Shown here: positions 5,799 to 34,206 of the stretch, in pieces | Layout: the number at the start of each line of letters is the position of its first letter | How positions within the stretch are numbered: position 1 is the stretch's first letter | Origin: Asaia bogorensis | Lineage (GTDB): Bacteria > Pseudomonadota > Alphaproteobacteria > Acetobacterales > Acetobacteraceae | DNA: 34,243 bases | Assembly: GCA_945869965.1 (NCBI GenBank) | Contig: CAMBRC010000045.1 | Coordinates: 1 to 34,243 of the forward strand | Direction of reading: 5' to 3' | Position numbers and translations under genes: made by a program | The notes under the pieces: model-generated | Database searches by the model: none | What the model saw: the letters and a program-made list of their open reading frames with translations, nothing else | Told to the model about the DNA's origin: nothing

Positions 5799-6377
5799 AT
5801 GAACGACGAAATCGACCGCCTGTTCGACAAGGTCCATGCCGTCGAGACGGAGATCGAACAGCGCCTGGAGGCACATCGCGCGCAGTTCCGCTACCAGGTC
5901 GCCAAGGGCCGCGCGGTGTTCGAGGCCGAGGCCGAGCGGATCAACCGTCAATTGCGCACCGGCCTGTTCAGCTACCTGCGCGCCACGCCCTGGCGGCATC
6001 TGGCGGTGGCTCCGGTGATCTACGGCATGGTGATCCCGTTCGCCCTGATCGACCTCAGCCTGAGCATCTACCAGCAGCTTTGCTTCCGCGCCTGGGGTAT
6101 CGCCCGGGTGGCGCGGCGTGACTACATCGTGCTGGACCGTCACCGCCTGAGCTACCTGAACGCGATCGAAAAGCTGAACTGCCTGTATTGCAGCTACGCC
6201 AACGGCGTCCTGGGCTATGCCCGCGAGATCGCCGGGCGCACCGAACAATTCTGGTGCCCGATCCGCCACGCCACCCAGATCCGCGGCCCGCATGCGCGCT
6301 ACAAGGCCTTCGTCGACTACGGTGATGCCGCGGGCTATCGCGCCCGGCTGGACGAACTGCGCGCCAGGCTGCGCTGA
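5799..6377 (+). CDS. Conserved hypothetical membrane-associated protein with Cys-rich C-terminal segment
   Basis: 192 residues. An N-terminal helical, probably coiled-coil stretch (residues 1-45, many Glu/Arg) is followed by one long hydrophobic segment (about 60-85, HLAVAPVIYGMVIPFALIDL) and a soluble C-terminal part with CLYCSYANGV and EQFWCPIRHA. These Cys/His residues could bind metal. I recall this layout (YCSYANG then RTEQFWCPI) from uncharacterised proteobacterial proteins but know no function. The second ATG is chosen because CAGGG lies about nine bases before it; the ATG at 5790 overlaps that site. It is 83 bases after the DUF4279-like gene, same direction. Confidence 0.75.
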   Translation: MNDEIDRLFDKVHAVETEIEQRLEAHRAQFRYQVAKGRAVFEAEAERINRQLRTGLFSYLRATPWRHLAVAPVIYGMVIPFALIDLSLSIYQQLCFRAWGIARVARRDYIVLDRHRLSYLNAIEKLNCLYCSYANGVLGYAREIAGRTEQFWCPIRHATQIRGPHARYKAFVDYGDAAGYRARLDELRARLR

Positions 6378-6491
6378 GCGCCACGCCCGGCTGGTCACGA
6401 TTGCGCCAGCCGCGGCGGCACGATAATCACGCCGATGGCCCAACGGCGCGGCCGGCGATAGACTTCGCCGGCCCGCAAACAGGAGCCGCCG

Positions 6492-7091
6492 ATGTCCACC
6501 CAAGCCCCGCCGGTGCTCGGCCAGGAGGTGACCTGGGCCGGCAATGTCACCCAGAACACCTGGGTTGGCCCGCGCAGCGCCCGCAACCTGGAACTGAGCC
6601 TGGGCTATGCCGAGGGCCGGCTGTCGCCAGGGTGGGCGGTGCTGGTGCTCAAGGAGAAGCTGTCCCCGCCTGATTTCGAGTTCGACGGCATCACTCTGCG
6701 CTCCGGTGGCCGCGAGGGTCTGCCCGCCGCGAGTTGGGAGGCCGAGGCGCTGCGGCCGCGCGTGCATAAAAACGTGCTGCGCGAGCGCGGCGTTGAGGGC
6801 TATCGCCTGTTGCAGCGCTGGAGCCTGGCCACCATTCCCGAAACCGGCCAGCAGCGCCTGGTCAAGGTGGTGCCGGTCACGCCGCACACGCAAGCGGTGC
6901 CGCCGGACCAGCAATACCCGATGGGCGGCGGGGGGCTGCAATGGAAGCTAAAGCGTCCGTGCCGCTTCCTGGTGGCGATGACCGTCGATGCCGGCCAGAT
7001 CGCCGCCATCCCGGGCTTCACCGCCTATATCGGCGAGGGCGGCAACTACGACAACCGCGCCCGGCTGGCGCGCTATCTTGACTCCGCCTGA
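6492..7091 (+). CDS. Hypothetical protein (199 aa)
   Basis: 199 residues preceded by a good ribosome site (AGGAG, eight bases before ATG). It is soluble, with no signal peptide, no membrane segments and no Cys cluster. Recognisable features are a central GYRLLQRWSLATIPETGQQ strand region and a C-terminal GFTAYIGEGGNYDNRARLARYL. GC3 is high and C-ending codons dominate, as in neighbouring plus-strand genes, so it is a real gene. I do not recognise the family. Its 3' end overlaps the convergent CoA-transferase gene by 19 bases. Confidence 0.75.
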   Translation: MSTQAPPVLGQEVTWAGNVTQNTWVGPRSARNLELSLGYAEGRLSPGWAVLVLKEKLSPPDFEFDGITLRSGGREGLPAASWEAEALRPRVHKNVLRERGVEGYRLLQRWSLATIPETGQQRLVKVVPVTPHTQAVPPDQQYPMGGGGLQWKLKRPCRFLVAMTVDAGQIAAIPGFTAYIGEGGNYDNRARLARYLDSA

Positions 7092-8209
7092 CCCGCGCCG
7101 CGCACCGCATTATCCGCCCCCAGCGTCGGCGCCCCATGCCGCACCGGCGGCCGCGCGCCATCGAAACTGATCGGCAGGCCCATCAGCGGCAGCGTCATCC
7201 CCGGCGGCGGCGCCAGCATCCCCAGGGCCGCGACCTGCGTGTCGGTATGCAGAACGCCCATGTCGTTGATCGGCGCACAGGGCACGCCGATCGCCTCGAA
7301 CCGTTCCTCCCAATACGCCGACGGCTGCTGCGTCATGATCGCCGAGATCAGCCCGATGATCTCGTCCTTGTTGCCCGCCCGCGCCGCATTGGTGGCATAG
7401 CGCGGGTCGGCCGCCCATTCCGGGTGTCCCAGCTCGGCCGCCATCTTGGCGAACAGCCGATCGGTGGCGGCGGCGACCACCAGTTCGCGGTCAGCGGTTG
7501 GCACTGCCTGGAACACCACTACGCGCGGATTGCCGCTGCGATCGCGCTGCGGGTGTTTTCCGGATTCGGCAAACGCCGCCCAATGCCCGCTCATCCAGCC
7601 CATCGCGGTTTCCAGCAGCGATGTATCGACGATCCCGCCAAGGCCAGTGTTCTGCCGCCGCAACAATGCCGCGAGGATGCCCATCGCCGCCCACATGCCG
7701 GTCCCAAGGTCCAGAACCTGCACCCCGATCCGGCTGGGTGCCCCCACGGGATCGCCGTTCAGCGCGAACAATCCGGAGAACGCCTGCACCATCGGCTCGA
7801 ACCCCGGCGACATCCGCCGCGGCCCGACCGAGCCGAGCGCCCATAGCGAGCAATAGACCAGCCGCTTGTTGGCCGCGACCATCGACCGCGCGCCCAGCCC
7901 CAGCTTCTCCAGCGCCCCGGGCCGCATGTTCTGCACCACCACATCGCTCTGGCCGATGCGCTCGACCAGCCAGGCGAAGTCGTCCTCGTTACGAAAATCC
8001 AGTGTAACGCTGCGTTTATTGAGATTCATCGCATGAAAGGTCGTTGCCATCCCGCCATGGAACGGTGGTCCCCAGCCGCGGGCATTGTCGCCCTCCGGCC
8101 GCTCCACCTTCAGCACGTCGGCACCCATCAGCGCCAGGATCTGCCCGGCATACGGCCCGGCCAGGTTCTCCGCGATCTCGACAACCTTGACCCCCGCCAG
8201 CGGCAGCAT
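7073..8209 (-). CDS. Class III CoA-transferase (CaiB/BaiF family)
   Basis: 378 residues, close to the family norm of about 380-400. N-terminal LAGVKVVEIAENLAGPYAGQILALMGADVLKVERPEGD is the CaiB/BaiF signature; NLNKRSVTLDF and QNMRPGALEKLGLG follow. The Asp in GIVDTSLLETAMGWM matches the catalytic residue that forms the mixed anhydride in formyl-CoA transferase. It moves CoA between acyl carboxylates; the acids cannot be named. Its ATG overlaps the TGA of the flavin oxidoreductase gene upstream (TGATG), so the two are an operon. The neighbouring crotonase suggests a shared acyl-CoA catabolic route. Confidence 0.9.
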   Translation of the reverse strand: MLPLAGVKVVEIAENLAGPYAGQILALMGADVLKVERPEGDNARGWGPPFHGGMATTFHAMNLNKRSVTLDFRNEDDFAWLVERIGQSDVVVQNMRPGALEKLGLGARSMVAANKRLVYCSLWALGSVGPRRMSPGFEPMVQAFSGLFALNGDPVGAPSRIGVQVLDLGTGMWAAMGILAALLRRQNTGLGGIVDTSLLETAMGWMSGHWAAFAESGKHPQRDRSGNPRVVVFQAVPTADRELVVAAATDRLFAKMAAELGHPEWAADPRYATNAARAGNKDEIIGLISAIMTQQPSAYWEERFEAIGVPCAPINDMGVLHTDTQVAALGMLAPPPGMTLPLMGLPISFDGARPPVRHGAPTLGADNAVRGAGQAESR

Positions 8210-9153
8210 CACGCCACCAGCCCCGCGACACGGACCGCCGCCGCGCGATACTCCGCCGCCATGCGGTCGACCAGTTCGGCCACGCTGGGAATGTCGGTGA
8301 TCGCCCCGGAACCCTGCCCGGCGCCCCAGATGTCGCGCCACGCCTGCGGCTTCTCCCGCTTGTGCCCGGCGACATAGGTGCGGCCGGTTTCCGGTACCGG
8401 CAGGTTGGCCGGATCGAGTCCGGCCGCGATCATGCTCTTGGACAAGTAATTGCCATGCACGCCCGAGAACATGTTGGTGTAGGTGACGTCCTTGCTGCCA
8501 CTATCGACGATCATCTGCTTGTAGGCATCGGGCGCGTTGGCCTCGCGCGTGGCGATGAAGCGGGTGCCCATATAGACCATGTCCGCGCCCATCGCCTGTG
8601 CCGCCAGCACCGACGCCCCGTCGCCGATCGCTCCGGCCAGGATGATCGTGCCGTCGAAGAACTTCCGAACTTCCGGCAACAGCGCAAACGGCGAGGTTGC
8701 CCCGCCATGCCCGCCCGCTCCCGCACAAACCAGGATCAACCCGTCCACCCCTTGCTCCACCGCCTTCTCGGCATGGCGCAGCGTGGTCACGTCATGAAAC
8801 ACCAACCCGCCATATTCATGTGCCCCTTGCACCACCTCGGCCGGCGGGCGCAGCGAGGTGATGATCACCGGCACGCGAAACTTCATGCAGGTGTCGAGGT
8901 CGCCGGCCAGCCGGTCGTTGCTGGCATGGCAGATCAGGTTCACGCCATACAGCCCATGCGTGCCCGCCAACCGCCCCTGCAACTGTTCCAGCCACACCGC
9001 GAATTCCGCCTGTGGCCGCGCGTTCAGCGCCGGGAAGGTGCCGAGAATCCCCGCCCGGCACTGCGCCTCCACCAGGTCGAGCCCGGAGACGATGAACATC
9101 GGCGAGCCGATCACCGGCAGGCGCAGGCGGCTGAACTGTTGCGGTATCGCCAT
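8209..9153 (-). CDS. NAD(P)H-dependent flavin oxidoreductase (nitronate monooxygenase-like)
   Basis: 314 residues of the FMN-dependent 2-nitropropane dioxygenase/enoyl-ACP reductase FabK-like TIM-barrel family. Markers: LRLPVIGSPMFIVSG, VNLICH, DGLILVCAGAGGHGG (phosphate-binding Gly loop with the His of the active site), IILAGAIGDGASVLAAQAMGADMVYMGTRF. True nitronate monooxygenase activity is not established; many relatives serve in lipid or aromatic metabolism. The start at MAIPQQFSRL has GAGGAGA upstream; longer frames run into the divergent crotonase promoter region. It is the first gene of a two-gene operon with the CoA-transferase and diverges from the crotonase at 9265. Confidence 0.9.
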   Translation of the reverse strand: MAIPQQFSRLRLPVIGSPMFIVSGLDLVEAQCRAGILGTFPALNARPQAEFAVWLEQLQGRLAGTHGLYGVNLICHASNDRLAGDLDTCMKFRVPVIITSLRPPAEVVQGAHEYGGLVFHDVTTLRHAEKAVEQGVDGLILVCAGAGGHGGATSPFALLPEVRKFFDGTIILAGAIGDGASVLAAQAMGADMVYMGTRFIATREANAPDAYKQMIVDSGSKDVTYTNMFSGVHGNYLSKSMIAAGLDPANLPVPETGRTYVAGHKREKPQAWRDIWGAGQGSGAITDIPSVAELVDRMAAEYRAAAVRVAGLVA

Positions 9154-15503: not shown

Positions 15504-15603
15504 TGGTAGTTAACATATAGCGCCGAGCGCGCCGCTACAAGGGGTGCACGCGGATTTTTTTCGTAAATTTTTTAAACGCCCGCGAATGGCATGGAAGCCA
15601 AGC

Positions 15604-15641
15604 GGATATAAGTTTTTTGGTTCTTTTTTTCAAAAAAGAAC
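15604..15641. repeat. AT-rich palindromic element A (single half-unit)
   Basis: One half-unit of the family: an arm GGATATAAGTTTTTTG followed by a hairpin with stem GTTCTTTTTT (15620-15629) and AAAAAAGAAC (15632-15641). No inverted partner follows; about 20 bases downstream the GC-rich hairpin repeat begins. The element lies between the hypothetical gene (start at 15503) and the end of secF. Confidence 0.85.
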
Positions 15642-15660
15642 AATGGCTTGCTGGCTGGGC

Positions 15661-16672: not shown

Positions 16673-16714
16673 GGCCGTGTTCCTAGCGGGAGCCGAGAGG
16701 CAGGAAGGAAGATT

Positions 16715-16813
16715 CTTCTTTTTCTGAAGAAAAAGAAGCAAAAAGACTTTTATCCATTTGGGCTGGGGCTGAATGGAAAGACAGTTTTTTGGTTCTTTTT
16801 TTCAAAAAAGAAC
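16715..16813. repeat. AT-rich palindromic element B between secD and secF
   Basis: Two half-units in inverted order. Stem CTTCTTTTTC (16715-16724) with GAAAAAGAAG (16729-16738), then arm AAAAAGACTTTTATCCATTT, a short centre, arm AATGGAAAGACAGTTTTTTG, and stem GTTCTTTTTT (16792-16801) with AAAAAAGAAC (16804-16813). Its position between two cotranscribed sec genes means that, if it terminates strongly, secF needs its own promoter. Confidence 0.85.
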
Positions 16814-16830
16814 GTGCTTGCTGGGGTGGC

Positions 16831-18481: not shown

Positions 18482-18549
18482 GGCCGGCAGGCTCCGGGGT
18501 GGGCGGGGGCGGAGAATGACGATAGCGTCGGGCGATGGCAACCTGGGCC

Positions 18550-18640
18550 AAGCGGATGAAAGTTTTTTGGTTCTTTTTTTCAAAAATGAACAAGCGCTTC
18601 TTTTTGAAAAAAGAAGCAAAAACTTTTCATCTGTTTAGAA
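18550..18640. repeat. AT-rich palindromic element C (head-to-head half-units)
   Basis: Here the arms lie outside and the hairpins inside, the reverse of elements B and D-G: arm AGCGGATGAAAGTTTTTTG, an imperfect hairpin (GTTCTTTTTTT with AAAAATGAAC, one T-T mismatch), then a hairpin of GCTTCTTTTT (18596-18605) and AAAAAGAAGC (18608-18617), then arm AAAAACTTTTCATCTGTTT. It sits between two divergent genes (secD and the oxidoreductase). Confidence 0.85.
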
Positions 18641-22261: not shown

Positions 22262-23116
22262 ATGAGCTACGAGACGATTACCTATGAGCTGAAGGGCACC
22301 ACGGCGGTGATCACGCTGAACCGGCCGGAGCGGCGCAATGCGCTGAGCCTGCAGTTGCAGAAGGAGCTGGCGGCGGCGTTGATCGAGGCGGATGAGCACA
22401 ACGCGATTCATGCGGTGGTGCTGAAGGGGGCGGGGCCGCATTTCTGTGCGGGGGCGGATTTGAGCGAGTATTCCGCCGGGCGGGGGCCGGAGTATCGCGG
22501 GCGGGAGGAGATCGACGACGATATCTGGCGGCTGGAGCAGGGGCAGAAGCTGCGGATGACCTTGTTCGACATGCATAAGCCGGTGATCTGCATGGTGCAT
22601 GGGACGGTGATCGGGGTGGGGACCGATATCATGCTGTTGTGCGATATCGTGATCGCCGCGGACGATGCGCGGATCGGGTTTCCGCCGGTGCGCGACCTGG
22701 GGACGCCGCCGGGGCATATGTGGCTCTATAACATTGGGCCGCAGTGGGCGAAGCGGTTGATGCTGACGGGGGATTCGGTGACCGGGGCGGATGCGGCGCT
22801 GATCGGGCTGGTGCTGAAGGCGGTGCCTCTGGCGGATCTGGAGGGTGAGGTGATGCGGCTGGCGGGGCGGATGGGGATGGTGGATCCGCATCTGCTGTCG
22901 GCCAATAAGCGGTTGATCAATTTGGGGCTGGAGCTGATGGGGGCGCGGACGTTGCAGCGCCTGGCGGCCGAGATCGATGCGCGGGGGCACAATGCGCCGA
23001 TGGCACGGCAGTTCAAGAAGACGATGCGGGAGTTCGGGGTGAAGCATGCCTTCACCAAGCGGGATTCGGCGTTCGGGCGGGGGTATGCGAGCGTCGTTGG
23101 ACCGGATAAGGATTAA
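22262..23116 (+). CDS. Divergent crotonase-family enzyme
   Basis: 284 residues, about 20 longer than most crotonases, with a C-terminal extension ending KRDSAFGRGYASVVG. First oxyanion loop FCAGADLSEY, second HGTVIGVGTDIMLLCDI. The classical Glu pair is replaced: Asp122 (GVGTDIM) stands at the first site and Pro (GFPPVRDLG) at the second, while the usual GAGG turn reads TPPGHMW. Catalysis therefore differs from enoyl-CoA hydratase and the reaction cannot be stated. GGAGG lies just before the ATG. It stands alone, in the same direction as the quinone oxidoreductase but separated from it by palindromic element D. Confidence 0.85.
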   Translation: MSYETITYELKGTTAVITLNRPERRNALSLQLQKELAAALIEADEHNAIHAVVLKGAGPHFCAGADLSEYSAGRGPEYRGREEIDDDIWRLEQGQKLRMTLFDMHKPVICMVHGTVIGVGTDIMLLCDIVIAADDARIGFPPVRDLGTPPGHMWLYNIGPQWAKRLMLTGDSVTGADAALIGLVLKAVPLADLEGEVMRLAGRMGMVDPHLLSANKRLINLGLELMGARTLQRLAAEIDARGHNAPMARQFKKTMREFGVKHAFTKRDSAFGRGYASVVGPDKD

Positions 23117-23120
23117 GCGC

Positions 23121-23234
23121 GTTCTTTTTTGAAAAAAAGAACCAAAAAACTTTTATTCGTTTGGGCCGGGTGTTTGCATAGGCCCGGCCTTAATGGATGA
23201 AGTTTTTTTGCTTCTTTTTGTTCACAAAAAGAAG
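23121..23234. repeat. AT-rich palindromic element D
   Basis: A full element. Hairpin GTTCTTTTTT (23121-23130) with AAAAAAGAAC (23133-23142), arm CAAAAAACTTTTATTCG, a GC stem GGCCGGG (23164-23170) with CCCGGCC (23183-23189), arm AATGGATGAAGTTTTTTTG, and a second hairpin CTTCTTTTTGT (23211-23221) with ACAAAAAGAAG (23224-23234). It starts 4 bases after the crotonase stop and ends 23 bases before the next gene's GTG. Confidence 0.9.
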
Positions 23235-23257
23235 AATCTTTCTTTAGGAGTGCTGGC

Positions 23258-24455: not shown

Positions 24456-24716
24456 ATGGCTTCGACCGCTGTTTCCGCACGCGCCCGCACTGCCCAGATC
24501 CTGATTGGCGAGAAGGGTGCCAACCGGGCCGTCCGGGTGCTGCATCCCGGTAAGCTGTCGCCGGATGACATGGTTCGGATCAACAAGGTTCTGGTGGAGC
24601 AGGTGATCAAGGGGCTGACGGGTTGTGCGTGTCTGTCCGGGGTGATCGATGTGATCTGGGAGCGGGAATTCGACCAAGTGCTGGATGTGAAGCTTGGGGC
24701 GGGGTTCCAGGGCTGA
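24456..24716 (+). CDS. Small CxC protein, putative precursor or substrate of the adjacent MNIO enzyme
   Basis: 86 residues. A basic Ala/Ser-rich start (MASTAVSARARTAQIL) without a hydrophobic signal core, then HPGKLSPDDMVRINKVLVEQV, then LTGCACLSGVIDVIWERE and VLDVKLGAG. The only Cys residues are C57 and C59 in the GCACLSG motif. It lies directly before a DUF692/MNIO gene, whose relatives oxidise Cys or Asp residues of small peptides (methanobactin, bufferins, 3-thiaglutamate). By position, size and paired Cys it is the obvious substrate. The rest of the sequence looks like a folded helical/strand protein more than an unstructured leader, so a non-RiPP role cannot be excluded. I do not know a named family. 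Confidence 0.75.
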   Translation: MASTAVSARARTAQILIGEKGANRAVRVLHPGKLSPDDMVRINKVLVEQVIKGLTGCACLSGVIDVIWEREFDQVLDVKLGAGFQG

Positions 24717-24727
24717 GGGTTCGGGCC

Positions 24728-25630
24728 GTGTCTACCGGGCGTCCGTTGGTTGGGCTGTTGTATCATCCGGCGGTGCCGGGGGTGCTCGACGTGATGGGCG
24801 CCGGGGTGGACTTCGTCGAGGTCATACCGGATCGGCTCTGGTATGATTTCGGCGTGGGGGCCGAGCGGCGGTTTTCGCATTCGACTGCTGCGATCGATGA
24901 ACTTCGCCGGCATGCGCGGGGGCGGGCGGTGATCGGGCACGGCATCGGGTTGTCGCTGCCGAGTGCCATGCCGCTTGATGAGGCGCTGGTGGACGAGGTG
25001 GTGGCTTCGCACCGGATGCTCGATTATCGATGGTACAGCGAGCATTTGAGCATGTTCCTGGTGCCGGGGCGCAGCGTTCCCAATGCGCAGGCGGGGATGG
25101 GGCTGCCGGTGGTGCTGGACGAGGAGATGCTGGGGATTGTGGGGGGGAAGGTGCGGCTTCTGGGGGAGGCGTTGGGGACGCGCATCCTGATGGAGAACAG
25201 CACGATCTTTTCGCAGATCCCGGAGCAGGATATGACGGAGCCGGAATTTCTCAACCGGCTGTGCGCGGAGACCGGGTGCGGGGTGTTGCTGGACTTGCAC
25301 AATCTGTATGCCAATACGCGCAATCTGGGGATCTCGCCGGGGGAGTATCTGGCGGCGCTGGATCCTGGGTTGGTGGTGGAGATCCACCTGGCGGGCGGGG
25401 ATGAGTTGCGGGGGTTCTATACCGACTCGCATTCGCGGCCGACGCCGGAGGTGGTGTGGGATTGGGCGCGGGAGTGGGCGCCGCGGTTTCGGAACTTGGA
25501 AGCCATTACCTATGAGTATCATGAGAGCTATCAGAAGCGGATTGGGATGGACGGGGTGGCGCAGGAGTTGGCGCTGATGCGGGAGCTGGCCGAGGAGGTG
25601 GCGGTGCAGCGCGCGGGGGTGGTGGTGTGA
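24728..25630 (+). CDS. DUF692/MNIO multinuclear non-heme iron oxidase
   Basis: 300 residues starting at GTG; GAGGG seven bases upstream fixes this start over longer frames. A TIM-barrel metalloenzyme of the MbnB/TglH/BufB type. Metal-site motifs in order: GHGIGLSL (His71), WYSEHLSMF (His106), LMENSTIFS (Glu156), LLDLHNLYANTRN (Asp189, Asn192), VEIHLAGGDE (His220), TDSHSRPTPEVVWDW (Asp233, His235) and YEYHESY. All expected ligand positions are kept, so it should bind two or three iron ions and oxidise a peptide side chain. The LLDLHNLYANTRN wording marks a subgroup distinct from methanobactin or bufferin enzymes. It lies 11 bases after the CxC gene and overlaps the next by GTGA. Confidence 0.9.
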   Translation: MSTGRPLVGLLYHPAVPGVLDVMGAGVDFVEVIPDRLWYDFGVGAERRFSHSTAAIDELRRHARGRAVIGHGIGLSLPSAMPLDEALVDEVVASHRMLDYRWYSEHLSMFLVPGRSVPNAQAGMGLPVVLDEEMLGIVGGKVRLLGEALGTRILMENSTIFSQIPEQDMTEPEFLNRLCAETGCGVLLDLHNLYANTRNLGISPGEYLAALDPGLVVEIHLAGGDELRGFYTDSHSRPTPEVVWDWAREWAPRFRNLEAITYEYHESYQKRIGMDGVAQELALMRELAEEVAVQRAGVVV

Positions 25631-26091
25631 CGCTGGCGGCGTTTCAGATGGCGATGGCGGATTTCGCGGCGTCGCCGGCGCTGTGCCGGGAGGTGCGGGG
25701 GGATCCGGGGGTGTTGCGCGGGCGGTATGAGCTGACGGAGCGGGAGTGGCGGCAGTTGGTGGGGGTGGTTGGTGGGCGGGGGATGGAGGCGGTCTGCATG
25801 CTGTATCGGGCCAATCGGCTCGCGCCGGTGGCGTTGAATTTGCCGGAGACGTGTGCGGCGTTGGGGGATGATTTGAACCGGCTGATCTCCGCCTATTGGG
25901 AGAGCGAGCCGGTCACCAATGTGAATTTTTTGGTGGAGGCGGATCGGTTTTGCCGGTTCCTCGAAGGGCGCGTGGATGTGCCGGCGGCGGCGCGGGGGGC
26001 GCTGGCGCGGGAGCATGGGGTGTTGGCGGCGCGGGTGGCGTTTAGTGAGTCGCTGGCTGGTCGTGGGGGGCAGGAAGTAGCTGCAGGATAG
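25627..26091 (+). CDS. Putative partner protein of the MNIO enzyme (154 aa)
   Basis: 154 residues from GTG, overlapping the TGA of the MNIO gene by three bases. N-terminal FQMAMADFAASPALCREVRGDPGVL and RYELTEREWRQLVGVVGG, central MLYRANRLAPVALNLPETC, then TNVNFLVEADRFCRFLEG. Mostly helical, with no membrane segment. MNIO enzymes usually work with a second protein that recognises the precursor (MbnC, TglI, BufC); size, order and coupling make this the likely equivalent. The sequence does not obviously match those families by eye. The C-terminal 35 residues (AAARGALAREHGVL onward) are low-complexity. Confidence 0.75.
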   Translation: MTLAAFQMAMADFAASPALCREVRGDPGVLRGRYELTEREWRQLVGVVGGRGMEAVCMLYRANRLAPVALNLPETCAALGDDLNRLISAYWESEPVTNVNFLVEADRFCRFLEGRVDVPAAARGALAREHGVLAARVAFSESLAGRGGQEVAAG

Positions 26092-28040: not shown

Positions 28041-28095
28041 TTGGCGGTGGTCCCCCTTGGGAGGAGAATAGCGGGAGGGCGGGCGGAAGGAAGGT

Positions 28096-28211
28096 GTTCT
28101 TTTTTGAAAAAAAAGAACCAAAAAACTTTCATCACTTGGCGGGGTGTTTGGGGGGAGGGACGGTTCCAATGGATGAAAGTCTTTTTGCTTCTTTTTCTTC
28201 AGAAAAAGAAG
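28096..28211. repeat. AT-rich palindromic element E
   Basis: A full element. Hairpin GTTCTTTTTT (28096-28105) with AAAAAAGAAC (28109-28118), arm CAAAAAACTTTCATCACTT, a centre without a strong GC stem, arm AATGGATGAAAGTCTTTTTG, then a hairpin of CTTCTTTTTCT (28188-28198) with AGAAAAAGAAG (28201-28211). It occupies most of the gap between two divergent genes, which is an odd place for a terminator. Confidence 0.9.
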
Positions 28212-28251
28212 ATTCTTCCTTGGCTTGGTGGCGTGCTCTATACCGCCGCGC

Positions 28252-31000: not shown

Positions 31001-32671
31001 ATGGCCCGAACCGTATCGCGCCTGTTGGCCGACAGCCTCGAAGCGCATGATATCGACATCATCTATTGCGTCCCCGGGGAGAGTTATCTCGGGCTGACCG
31101 ATGCGTTGGCGGACAAGAATTCCATACAGCTTGTGGTCTGCCGGCATGAGGGTGGGGCGGCGTTCATGGCGGTGGCAGATGGGCGGTTGCGCGACCGGGC
31201 CGGGGTGGCGGTGGTGTCGCGCGGGCCAGGGCTGGCCAATGCTATGGTGGCGGTGCACAGCGCGTTTCATGACGCGACGCCGCTGGTGCTGCTGGTGGGG
31301 CAGGTGGAGCGCAAGGATTTCGGGCGGCTGGCGCTGCAGGAGCAGAATTACTCGCGGCTGCTGTCCGACATCACCAAGCTGGTGATCGAGGTGAACGAAC
31401 CGGAGACGGCGAGCGAGGCGATTGCGCGGGCGTTCCATGTGGCGGAAAGCGGCCTGCCCGGGCCGGTGGCGGTGATCCTGCCGGAGGATCTGTTCGACGA
31501 GGCGACGGATGCGCCGGTGGATCTGCCGCGGCCGAAGGTGCATGGCGGCGCGCGGGCGGAGGATCTGGATCGGCTGGCGGCGATGATCGCGGCGGCCGAA
31601 AGGCCGTTGATCTATGTCGGCGGGGCGATGGCGGCGGATGCGGTGGCCGATCCCGCGGCGTTTGCGGATTTGGTGCGGTTTGCCGAGGAATGGGTTGTGC
31701 CTGTCAGTCCGACGCATCGGCGGCCGGCTTTGTTCGATGCGGCGCATCCGCACTACGGCGGGTATGTCGGGATTCGGATTCCGCCGGCGCAGATTGGCGA
31801 GATGAAGAAGGCTGATCTGCTGGTCAGTCTGGGCGAGCGAATGACGGATACGGTGAGCCAAGCGTACACATTCCCGACCGCGCCGCAGCCGCAATTGCCG
31901 CTGGTGCATGTGTTTCCGGACCCGAATGAGGTCGGGCGGGTGTGGCGGCCGGAGCTGGGGATTGTCGCTAATCCGCTTGTGGTGGTGCGGGCGCTGCTGG
32001 CGCGCGGGCGGCCGGCGGGGGCGGAGAAGCGGCGAGGCTGGGTGGAGGGGCTGAACGCGGTGCATCGCAAGCTGATGGCGCCGGAGTGGGAGGCGACGAC
32101 GGATGGGGTGAATTTCGCCGCCGTGGTCTGCGAGATCGCCAAGCACCTGGCGCCGAATGCGGCGGTGACGTCCGATGCTGGGAACTTCTCGTCGTTCCTG
32201 CATCGTTATATCGGCTTCAAGCCTGGGCAGAGCTTTCTGTCGTCGGTGGTTGGGGCGATGGGGGCCGGAGTGCCGATGGCGGTGGCGGCGTGTCTGCGCG
32301 ACCGGAACAGGCAGGTGGTGGGTTTCTGTGGCGATGGCGGGGCGCTGATGACCGGCAATGAGCTGGCCACGGCCCGGATGTATGGGGTGAACCCGATCAT
32401 CGTGGTGTCCGACAACAAGAGCTATGGCACGATCTCCATGCATCACATCGTGCGCTATCCCGGCCGGCCGTACAATGCGGCGACCGATCTGCGGAATCCG
32501 GATTTCGGGGCGTGGGCGCGCAGCTTTGGGGCCGAGGGGATCACGATTTCTTCGGAGGCCGAGGTGGGGGCGAAGGTGGCCGAGGCGTTTGCGGTTCGGG
32601 ATCGGCCGGTGGTTTTGCATGTGCATAGCTCCGCTGTGCAGATGAGTGCTTGGCGAAGGAAGAATGCGTAA
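31001..32671 (+). CDS. Thiamine pyrophosphate-binding enzyme (acetolactate synthase-like)
   Basis: 556 residues with three domains. The TPP-activating Glu is in VCRHEGGAAFMAVADG. The middle domain has PLIYVGGAMAADAVADP. The TPP/Mg motif is GDGGALMTGNELATARMYGVNPIIVVSDNKSYG (GDG then N about 25 residues on). SVVGAMGAGVPMAVAACL is typical of the decarboxylase group. This group includes acetolactate synthase catalytic subunit-like, sulfoacetaldehyde and oxalyl-type enzymes; no small regulatory subunit is next to it, so the substrate is not decided. GGGAGACG lies before the ATG, the last of several possible starts. It is followed after 2 bases by palindromic element F. Confidence 0.9.
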   Translation: MARTVSRLLADSLEAHDIDIIYCVPGESYLGLTDALADKNSIQLVVCRHEGGAAFMAVADGRLRDRAGVAVVSRGPGLANAMVAVHSAFHDATPLVLLVGQVERKDFGRLALQEQNYSRLLSDITKLVIEVNEPETASEAIARAFHVAESGLPGPVAVILPEDLFDEATDAPVDLPRPKVHGGARAEDLDRLAAMIAAAERPLIYVGGAMAADAVADPAAFADLVRFAEEWVVPVSPTHRRPALFDAAHPHYGGYVGIRIPPAQIGEMKKADLLVSLGERMTDTVSQAYTFPTAPQPQLPLVHVFPDPNEVGRVWRPELGIVANPLVVVRALLARGRPAGAEKRRGWVEGLNAVHRKLMAPEWEATTDGVNFAAVVCEIAKHLAPNAAVTSDAGNFSSFLHRYIGFKPGQSFLSSVVGAMGAGVPMAVAACLRDRNRQVVGFCGDGGALMTGNELATARMYGVNPIIVVSDNKSYGTISMHHIVRYPGRPYNAATDLRNPDFGAWARSFGAEGITISSEAEVGAKVAEAFAVRDRPVVLHVHSSAVQMSAWRRKNA

Positions 32672-32673
32672 GG

Positions 32674-32790
32674 GTTCTTTTTTGAAAAAAAAGAACCAAA
32701 AAACTTTCTATCCATTGGGGCTGGGTGCGCGACGCAGGCCCGGCCCAAATGGATGAAGTCTTTTTGCTTCTTTTTCTTCAGAAAAAGAAG
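32674..32790. repeat. AT-rich palindromic element F
   Basis: A full element beginning two bases after a stop codon. Hairpin GTTCTTTTTT (32674-32683) with AAAAAAGAAC (32687-32696), arm AAAAACTTTCTATCC, central stem CCATTGGGGCTGGG (32712-32725) with CCCGGCCCAAATGG (32739-32752), arm TGAAGTCTTTTTG, and hairpin CTTCTTTTTCT (32767-32777) with AGAAAAAGAAG (32780-32790). It separates two genes of the same direction. Confidence 0.9.
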
Positions 32791-32822
32791 ACTCTTGCTT
32801 GTGACCTTGGGGGTTAAAATCG

Positions 32823-33872: not shown

Positions 33873-33878
33873 GTGAGT

Positions 33879-33994
33879 CTACTTTTTGTGAACAAAAAGT
33901 AGCAAAAAAATTCATCCGTTTGCCTGGGGAAGCACGGTGCTTCCCCAGGCAAATGGACAAAGTTTTTTTAGTTCTTTTTGTTCACAAAAAGAAC
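33879..33994. repeat. AT-rich palindromic element G
   Basis: A full element between convergent genes. Hairpin CTACTTTTTGT (33879-33889) with ACAAAAAGTAG (33892-33902), arm CAAAAAAATTCATCCG, a perfect 17-bp central stem TTTGCCTGGGGAAGCAC (33919-33935) with GTGCTTCCCCAGGCAAA (33937-33953), arm TGGACAAAGTTTTTTTA, and hairpin GTTCTTTTTGT (33971-33981) with ACAAAAAGAAC (33984-33994). It can act as a terminator on both strands. Confidence 0.9.
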
Positions 33995-33998
33995 GCGC

Positions 33999-34206
33999 TT
34001 ACTCCTTGACCGGCGCCTTTGCTGCCATCTTGCGCCGGCGGTCCTCGCCTTTCTGGCGTAGGTATTCGGCGTTTTCCGGCGTGACCCGGTTGTAGTGAGA
34101 ACGGCGGTGGAAAAGTTTGCCACGGTAGCGGCGGGATAGCCTCGCTGCGGGCGGCGTAAAAGTCGGCCAGTTTTGCCCTTTCTGTTTTTAGGGAGGGCGG
34201 GAGCAT
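33999..34206 (-). pseudogene. Small basic protein gene, apparently frameshifted
   Basis: Two overlapping frames together look like one gene. The first starts at ATG 34206 and reads MLPPSLKTERAKLADFYAARSEA, a well-formed helix, then turns into low-quality sequence. The second, shifted by one, has no start codon but reads RRYRGKLFHRRSHYNRVTP, then ENAEYLRQKGEDRRRKMAAK and stops at 33999. The crossing is somewhere around 34120-34150. The joined product would be about 70 very basic residues. I do not recognise the family. It may be a true indel, a sequencing error or an accident. Confidence 0.4.

Follow-up and report, generated by a model that had tools for sequence, protein, structure and literature searches.

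In the window, meaning the whole 34,243-nucleotide stretch analysed here (Asaia bogorensis contig CAMBRC010000045.1, positions 1-34,243), three genes at 24456-26091 raise the question of whether an MNIO enzyme and its partner protein act on the cysteines of a small protein encoded directly before them. The genes lie head to tail on the + strand. The first (24456..24716, +, ATG start) encodes an 86-aa candidate substrate with two Cys, the second (24728..25630, +, GTG start) encodes an MNIO (DUF692, PF05114) of 300 aa, and the third (25627..26091, +, GTG start) encodes a 154-aa partner, which was predicted to be all-helical and PME-type 2-like. The original prediction had described a compact packing with gaps of 11 and -3 bases. 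The packing and the 11-base gap between the small gene and the MNIO gene were confirmed, and the second gap was corrected to -4, four bases (GTGA) being shared by the end of the MNIO gene and the start of the partner gene. This MNIO was the single one found in the window's genome.

Co-occurrence of the three genes

The 86-aa protein is too short and too diverged for single searches: used as a query, it found only itself in 100 related genomes (the window's own among them) and had zero matches in genome_contigs and zero in plasmids. The enzyme was therefore taken as the entry point. Against 385 genomes of its class the window enzyme gave, besides itself, one match of 173.6 bits, the next being 99.7 bits, and no further match that strong was obtained against 398 genomes from the phylum (best 98.5 bits). 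At the 173.6-bit locus (L007, on the same contig as L035, from an Alphaproteobacteria MAG) the enzyme is preceded by a 77-aa GCLPCAASG protein and followed by a partner homologue. This locus was also the only new real match when 26 loci were scanned with the motif C-x(1-4)-C-x(0-3)-[SA]-G, a scan that gave many chance matches. A two-row enzyme alignment was searched against genome_contigs with two short peptide patterns, so this enzyme-only scan was not exhaustive; it returned nine loci. These came from a Pyrinomonadaceae MAG, two Phenylobacterium MAGs, two Burkholderiales, Gammaproteobacteria, Lysobacterales and Alphaproteobacteria MAGs, and Malikia spinosa. In 9/9 of them, including the one that was in the query (L035, contig shared with L007), the MNIO gene is immediately preceded by a gene for a GCx(1-2)C protein and followed by one for a partner homologue, which bears out the proposal of the CxC protein as candidate substrate of a three-gene MNIO system.

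From the other end, the small-protein profile A4 gave one match in each of the 10 seed genomes, always at the trio. Matches were present in at least 10/299 genomes (family of G810), at least 4/250 (order of G807), at least 3/372 (window's class) and at least 3/149 (family of G803), counts in which misses are possible since many genomes had only part of their first-look candidates scored. Fourteen new matches lay outside the seed genomes, eight directly upstream of an intact MNIO with its partner, one beside fragments of both (L047/L063) and five beside neither. Homologues located mostly away from MNIO genes would have told against the original prediction; this check was largely favourable to it, with a result that depended on the strength of the match. 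All six new matches with E < 1e-10 adjoined an MNIO, intact in five and decayed in one (L063, 2690-4224, where a GCRPCLSG gene is followed by MNIO and partner fragments only). Among the eight weak matches (E 2.5e-4 to 0.009), L053, L056 and L057 belonged to trios, and for the five others (L052, L054, L059, L060 and L061) the MNIO and partner profiles found nothing at E up to 1 within about 5 kb on each side. Four of these five contain a GCx(1,2)C-like stretch (GCSACRSG in L052, GCCCEASG in L059, GCRPCQSG in L060, GCRPCAICG in L061), and L054 has no Cys pair; the L052 and L060 matches cross stop codons, and L059 and L061 have a third Cys in the stretch. These MNIO-less matches, scored here as misses, may be chance, relics or free-standing relatives.

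With the family profile A6, the 18 trio enzymes scored 314-481 bits (10 of these enzymes were used to build the profile; the remaining 8 scored 314-462), and 24 other MNIO loci scored 120-172 bits. None of these 24 loci, most of which hold about 1.5 kb on each side, showed a match to the small protein with E up to 1. Plasmid MNIO matches were more distant, and the three examined (149-160 bits with A6) had no small-protein match. Gene order and strand were the same in 18/18 intact trios. The pairwise distances of the three proteins were correlated (Mantel r 0.88-0.96, reached by 0/2000 permutations), a result which, like the tree agreement described below, could also be explained by plain joint inheritance of linked genes. 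Judged by these genomic comparisons, the three genes belong together.

Features of the small protein

The only cysteines of the 86-aa protein are C57 and C59, and both fall within the single GCACLSG motif that had been predicted (G56 C57 A58 C59 L60 S61 G62, residues 56-62; 24621..24641, +). For comparison, 19 small proteins were collected from the 18 intact trios and the decayed L063, the latter being left out of the tree, the Mantel test and the gap counts. Apart from the start Met, the sole invariant positions were G, C, C and G of the pattern G-C-x(1,2)-C-x(2,3)-G, corresponding to G56, C57, C59 and G62 in the window (19/19). The conservation of the cysteines, put forward as a check on the original prediction, was thus observed throughout: every one of the 19 proteins has exactly two Cys, and the pair is internal in each. 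Five motif types were distinguished (n=19), namely GCACLSG (4), GCRPCLSG (7, including L063), GCAPCGLGG (4), GCPACTSG (3) and GCLPCAASG (1). Among the intact trios 14/18 have CxxC and 4/18, window included, have CxC; the residue following the first Cys in the CxxC types is R, P, L or A.

At E up to 1 the small protein had no match in Pfam or NCBIfam. The predicted lack of a signal peptide was supported by a hydropathy scan run without a positive control, in which the N-terminus of the window protein showed no hydrophobic stretch (top 11-residue Kyte-Doolittle mean 0.42) and none of the 19 small proteins showed a hydrophobic N-terminus of the signal-peptide type. The highest 11-residue mean among them was 2.05, at residue 26 of the L032 protein, a position that aligns with a helix predicted in the window protein. 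The small gene gave dN/dS of 0 to 0.22 in 8 pairs (dS > 1.6 in both pairs containing the window), and by this codon-based measure it is under purifying selection. Within the CxC group, identity was 63-65% along the whole small protein. The structural model of the window protein was weak (pLDDT 61, residues 56-70 below 50) and showed a strand-strand-helix-strand arrangement. A fold search with this model gave no match with E up to 0.001, and a PDB search with the small-protein profile gave no convincing relative. The suggestion that the protein is partly folded rests on this weak model and was not upheld in that form.

The MNIO enzyme

The window enzyme scored 162.3 bits against PF05114 (cut-off 25). 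Its scores with five NCBIfam models were far under the cut-offs, namely 130.3 against 310 for BufB (NF050167), 104 against 360 for HvfB, 79 against 400 for ApyH, 47 against 600 for ChrH and 35 against 325 for MbnB (TIGR04159); BufB identity was rejected on this score. Nine iron ligands have been described for TglH (PMC10880893). Their counterparts in the window MNIO, counted by eye in an alignment, are H71, H106, E156, D189, N192, H220, D233, H235 and E263, and the nine positions were invariant in 10/10 rows of the family alignment. The assignment as a DUF692/MNIO enzyme with its ligand motifs retained is thus well founded. The enzyme wording LLDLHNLYANTRN, which had been pointed out in the original prediction, is not unique, since TglH has the equivalent LDLHNIYTNHLN, and LDLHNLY of the window enzyme resembles LDLHNIY of TglH. 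The family enzyme profile gave nearly the same score for TglH (130.6 bits) and for 3bww (130.9 bits), an MNIO placed with the PME1 group in PMC12668002; therefore, the product cannot be read from the enzyme.

The partner protein

The partner was modelled as all helical with a pLDDT of 85. Foldseek gave no significant match; the top probability was obtained for TglI (8hi7 chain A; 0.44, TMq 0.55), at an E of 4.3. No Pfam or NCBIfam family was matched at E up to 1, DUF2063 gave no match, and a PDB search with the partner profile found no solved relative. Its gene position right after the MNIO and the lack of a DUF2063 Pfam match agree with a PME-type 2 partner, which would be expected to resemble TglI or the helical domain of NGO1945 in structure. 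Partners of the CxC group have 148-161 aa, and those of the 12 CxxC trios in which the end was reached have 177-225 aa; two partners run off their locus, and as the enzyme and partner starts were guessed by a simple rule, lengths and gaps may err by some residues. The stretch absent from the CxC-group partners is C-terminal. We infer that these partners have probably lost a C-terminal region, possibly an RRE-like one.

Phylogeny and distribution

In the enzyme tree the 18 trio enzymes formed a cluster of their own (100/99), separate from the 15 other MNIOs included. The tree was midpoint-rooted, and those 15, obtained with the window enzyme as query, do not cover the whole superfamily (TglH, ApyH and MbnB were not in the tree). 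The four CxC enzymes, including that of the window, formed one group (100/100), sister to the CPACTSG group (100/98). The other motif types clustered as well (GCAPCGLGG 100/100, CPACTSG 99/95, GCRPCLSG 94/95). Judged by this tree, CxC probably arose from CxxC through loss of one residue.

The trio has a sporadic distribution. Of 8 other genomes of the genus, none gave a match to the small protein, and one has an MNIO match (57 bits) of another group. Outside the genus, comparable trios turn up in bacteria that are only distantly related. In the Pyrinomonadaceae MAG the trio is carried by a contig of 4,045 bases with 57% G+C, which may reflect horizontal transfer or wrong binning of the contig.

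Comparison with known MNIO systems

The original prediction held that the precursor differs from the known types. This was correct in so far as no test assigned the small protein to the bufferin, methanobactin or TglA-type precursors, and it has to be qualified since the kind has a precedent in the adjamnio families (PMC12452194). Antoine et al. 2025 describe in that work precursor families without signal peptide (adjamnio-1, -2 and -7), with CxxC in adjamnio-7, and PME-type 2 partners are stated for adjamnio-1 and -2. The window precursor resembles these families in lying beside an MNIO, in its Cys motif and in having no signal peptide seen; it differs from adjamnio-7, to which it was likened by description and not by alignment, in having CxC instead of CxxC and a partner of only 154 aa. 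Compared in this descriptive way, we read the window trio as a new CxC form of an already described kind, an adjamnio-like precursor with a PME-type 2-like partner. No paper on the chemistry of an adjamnio/PME-type 2-like system was found among the literature matches listed, a survey of main texts.

Bufferins and captophorins (BufABC, FonABC, oxazolin) share with the trio the order precursor-MNIO-partner and a Cys target. For the bufferin systems this order is reported to be strict, with the small Cys protein before the MNIO as the substrate (PMC12452194). However, the window precursor has no signal peptide seen and no DUF2282 or DUF2063 Pfam match was obtained in the trio, and the motifs of bufferins and oxazolins are Lys-Cys or multi-Cys, compared with one CxC in the window. 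The methanobactin system (MbnABC) likewise has an enzyme of the MNIO superfamily and a Cys substrate, but the MbnB model scored far below its cut-off and the window partner has no Pfam or NCBIfam match. The C-terminal substrate Cys of the pearlins (TglABHI) was not seen, the Cys being internal in 19/19 small proteins.

Proposed function and alternative explanations

Co-occurrence, the conserved motif, the retained iron ligands, purifying selection and the grouping in the tree together suggest a cassette in which the MNIO and its partner modify Cys of the small protein. We assign this reading, which is drawn from sequence evidence, a probability of about 0.72; the figure covers the cassette and not the ring chemistry discussed below. 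We regard it as highly likely that the small protein would be the MNIO substrate, and the modified residue would probably be one or both of the Cys. Several points count against the cassette. Five weak small-protein matches lack an MNIO within about 5 kb, four of them having a GCx(1,2)C-like stretch, and both the model of the small protein and the likeness of the partner to TglI are weak. No conserved copper or stress gene was recognised among the 20 neighbour proteins scanned, and two gene groups preceding MNIO genes are considered more likely to encode enzymes than substrates (PMC12452194).

As envisaged, the catalytic MNIO and the helical PME-type 2-like partner would form a holoenzyme, as TglH does with TglI, which would bind the small cytosolic protein and oxidise Cys in the G-C-x(1,2)-C-x(2,3)-G loop. 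The iron centre would remove a C-beta hydrogen of Cys to give a thioaldehyde, and capture by the preceding amide of the invariant Gly56 would yield a 5-thiooxazole-type (or oxazolone/thioamide) group at C57, whereas C59 would remain a thiol or undergo a like modification. The conversion of Cys into a ring is modelled on the mechanism discussed in PMC12668002. A thiooxazole/oxazolone-type product at C57, beside Gly56, is the likeliest single product, but it is a tentative choice at somewhat less than even odds. The LDLHN motif is shared with TglH, an enzyme that removes the Cys beta-carbon and forms no ring, and a thiooxazole MNIO is described as preferring a small residue after Cys (PMC12668002), so the R, P, L or A found after the first Cys in the CxxC types is a point against this type of product. 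The Cys pair would then serve as an intracellular ligand of a soft metal, with copper the likeliest; metal binding as the purpose is suggested by analogy with the family and not by this locus, and we put it, too, at somewhat less than even odds.

The main rival is a TglH-like reaction, in which C-beta of Cys would be excised (-14 Da), the altered residue would later be set free or put to use as a small sulfur compound, and the 86-aa protein would serve as a scaffold. A product of -14 Da has been reported for TglHI (PMC10880893). The resemblance to TglA/TglH/TglI extends to an MNIO with the LDLHN...N wording and nine ligands, to a partner protein, for which TglI has the highest probability among fold matches that are not significant, and to a small protein without a signal peptide seen (PMC12452194 for the Tgl system). 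However, TglHI acts on, and needs, a critical C-terminal Cys added by a peptide ligase (PMC9016710), whereas the pair considered here is internal (C57 and C59 of 86) and genome-encoded. TglI has its RRE at residues 171-269 (PMC9016710), and the 154-aa partner is too short for such a region. Among the proteins scanned next to the trio, none was recognisable as a ligase or peptidase; a search for PF04738 ligase relatives found nothing in 6 genomes, but its controls were silent too, so it says nothing on the ligase. The enzyme profile, which scores TglH and 3bww equally, does not favour this chemistry, and we consider it unlikely.

Less probable again is that the small protein is not a substrate and works with the MNIO complex as a thiol (CxC/CxxC) redox, sensor or docking protein. 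CxC and CxxC are common redox and metal motifs, and conservation in the CxC group extends across the whole protein and is not restricted to a core; the weak model predicts strand-strand-helix-strand elements. Some genes preceding MNIO genes are, moreover, probably enzymes (PMC12452194). Against this, gene order and coupled inheritance match the bufferin systems, and the small Cys protein is the substrate there. The weakest explanation, an unrelated small ORF placed before an MNIO by chance, could appeal to two of the three proteins having no named family match; it is refuted by the 9/9 co-occurrence of the trio and purifying selection on the small gene, and its probability is negligible.

The modification cassette thus remains the preferred reading, and within it the proposal that the Cys chemistry differs from the known MNIO types is possible. 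In the cited work MNIO chemistry concerns exported Cys peptides or natural-product precursors. More speculatively, and in our view rather doubtfully, the MNIO may take as its target a loop within a small folded protein of the cytosol and build a Cys-derived metal or redox centre from CxC. This would be the maturation of a permanent protein cofactor and not the making of a peptide natural product, and with the C-terminal loss in the CxC-group partners the substrate fold would take over recognition. As a minimal three-gene system with exactly two Cys, the first of them preceded by an invariant Gly, and with both CxC and CxxC forms occurring naturally, the trio makes the site, the spacing and the need for the partner C-terminus directly testable.

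Neighbouring genes and a repeat in the window

The trio in the window is flanked by genes for a zinc-binding dehydrogenase on one side and an enoyl-CoA hydratase on the other. A Pfam scan of 20 neighbour proteins (10 from the window and 10 from L029, L030, L032, L033 and L036) revealed no shared fourth gene. A defence role is unsupported, as a PADLOC search found nothing with E up to 0.1, and a consensus scan for promoters and terminators yielded nothing telling. Single loci have neighbours of their own. For example, the Pyrinomonadaceae CxC trio (L029, 3-2222) adjoins genes for a CO-dehydrogenase-type flavoprotein and CoxG. At L033 (1390-4401) a cysteine dioxygenase (CDO_I) gene lies directly upstream of the trio, and genes for an OsmC-like protein and a MarR regulator lie 2 to 3.4 kb upstream; none of these three was found in the window. 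Similarly, a MarR regulator is encoded about 2.2 kb upstream of the trio at L030. At L036 and L037 (both GCAPCGLGG; 6376-8367) a 663-aa protein follows the trio, with a weak transthyretin-like match in L036.

An AT-rich repeat was also observed in the window, at 15597-15649, 16705-16821, 18541-18622, 23115-23246, 28091-28222, 32670-32801 and 33875-34000, mostly between genes. Its core, AAGTTTTTTGGTTCTTTTTT, is present in both orientations, with some copies arranged as inverted pairs. This 20-base core occurred 107 + 126 times in the 4.7 Mb genome, compared with 0 for the reversed control pattern.
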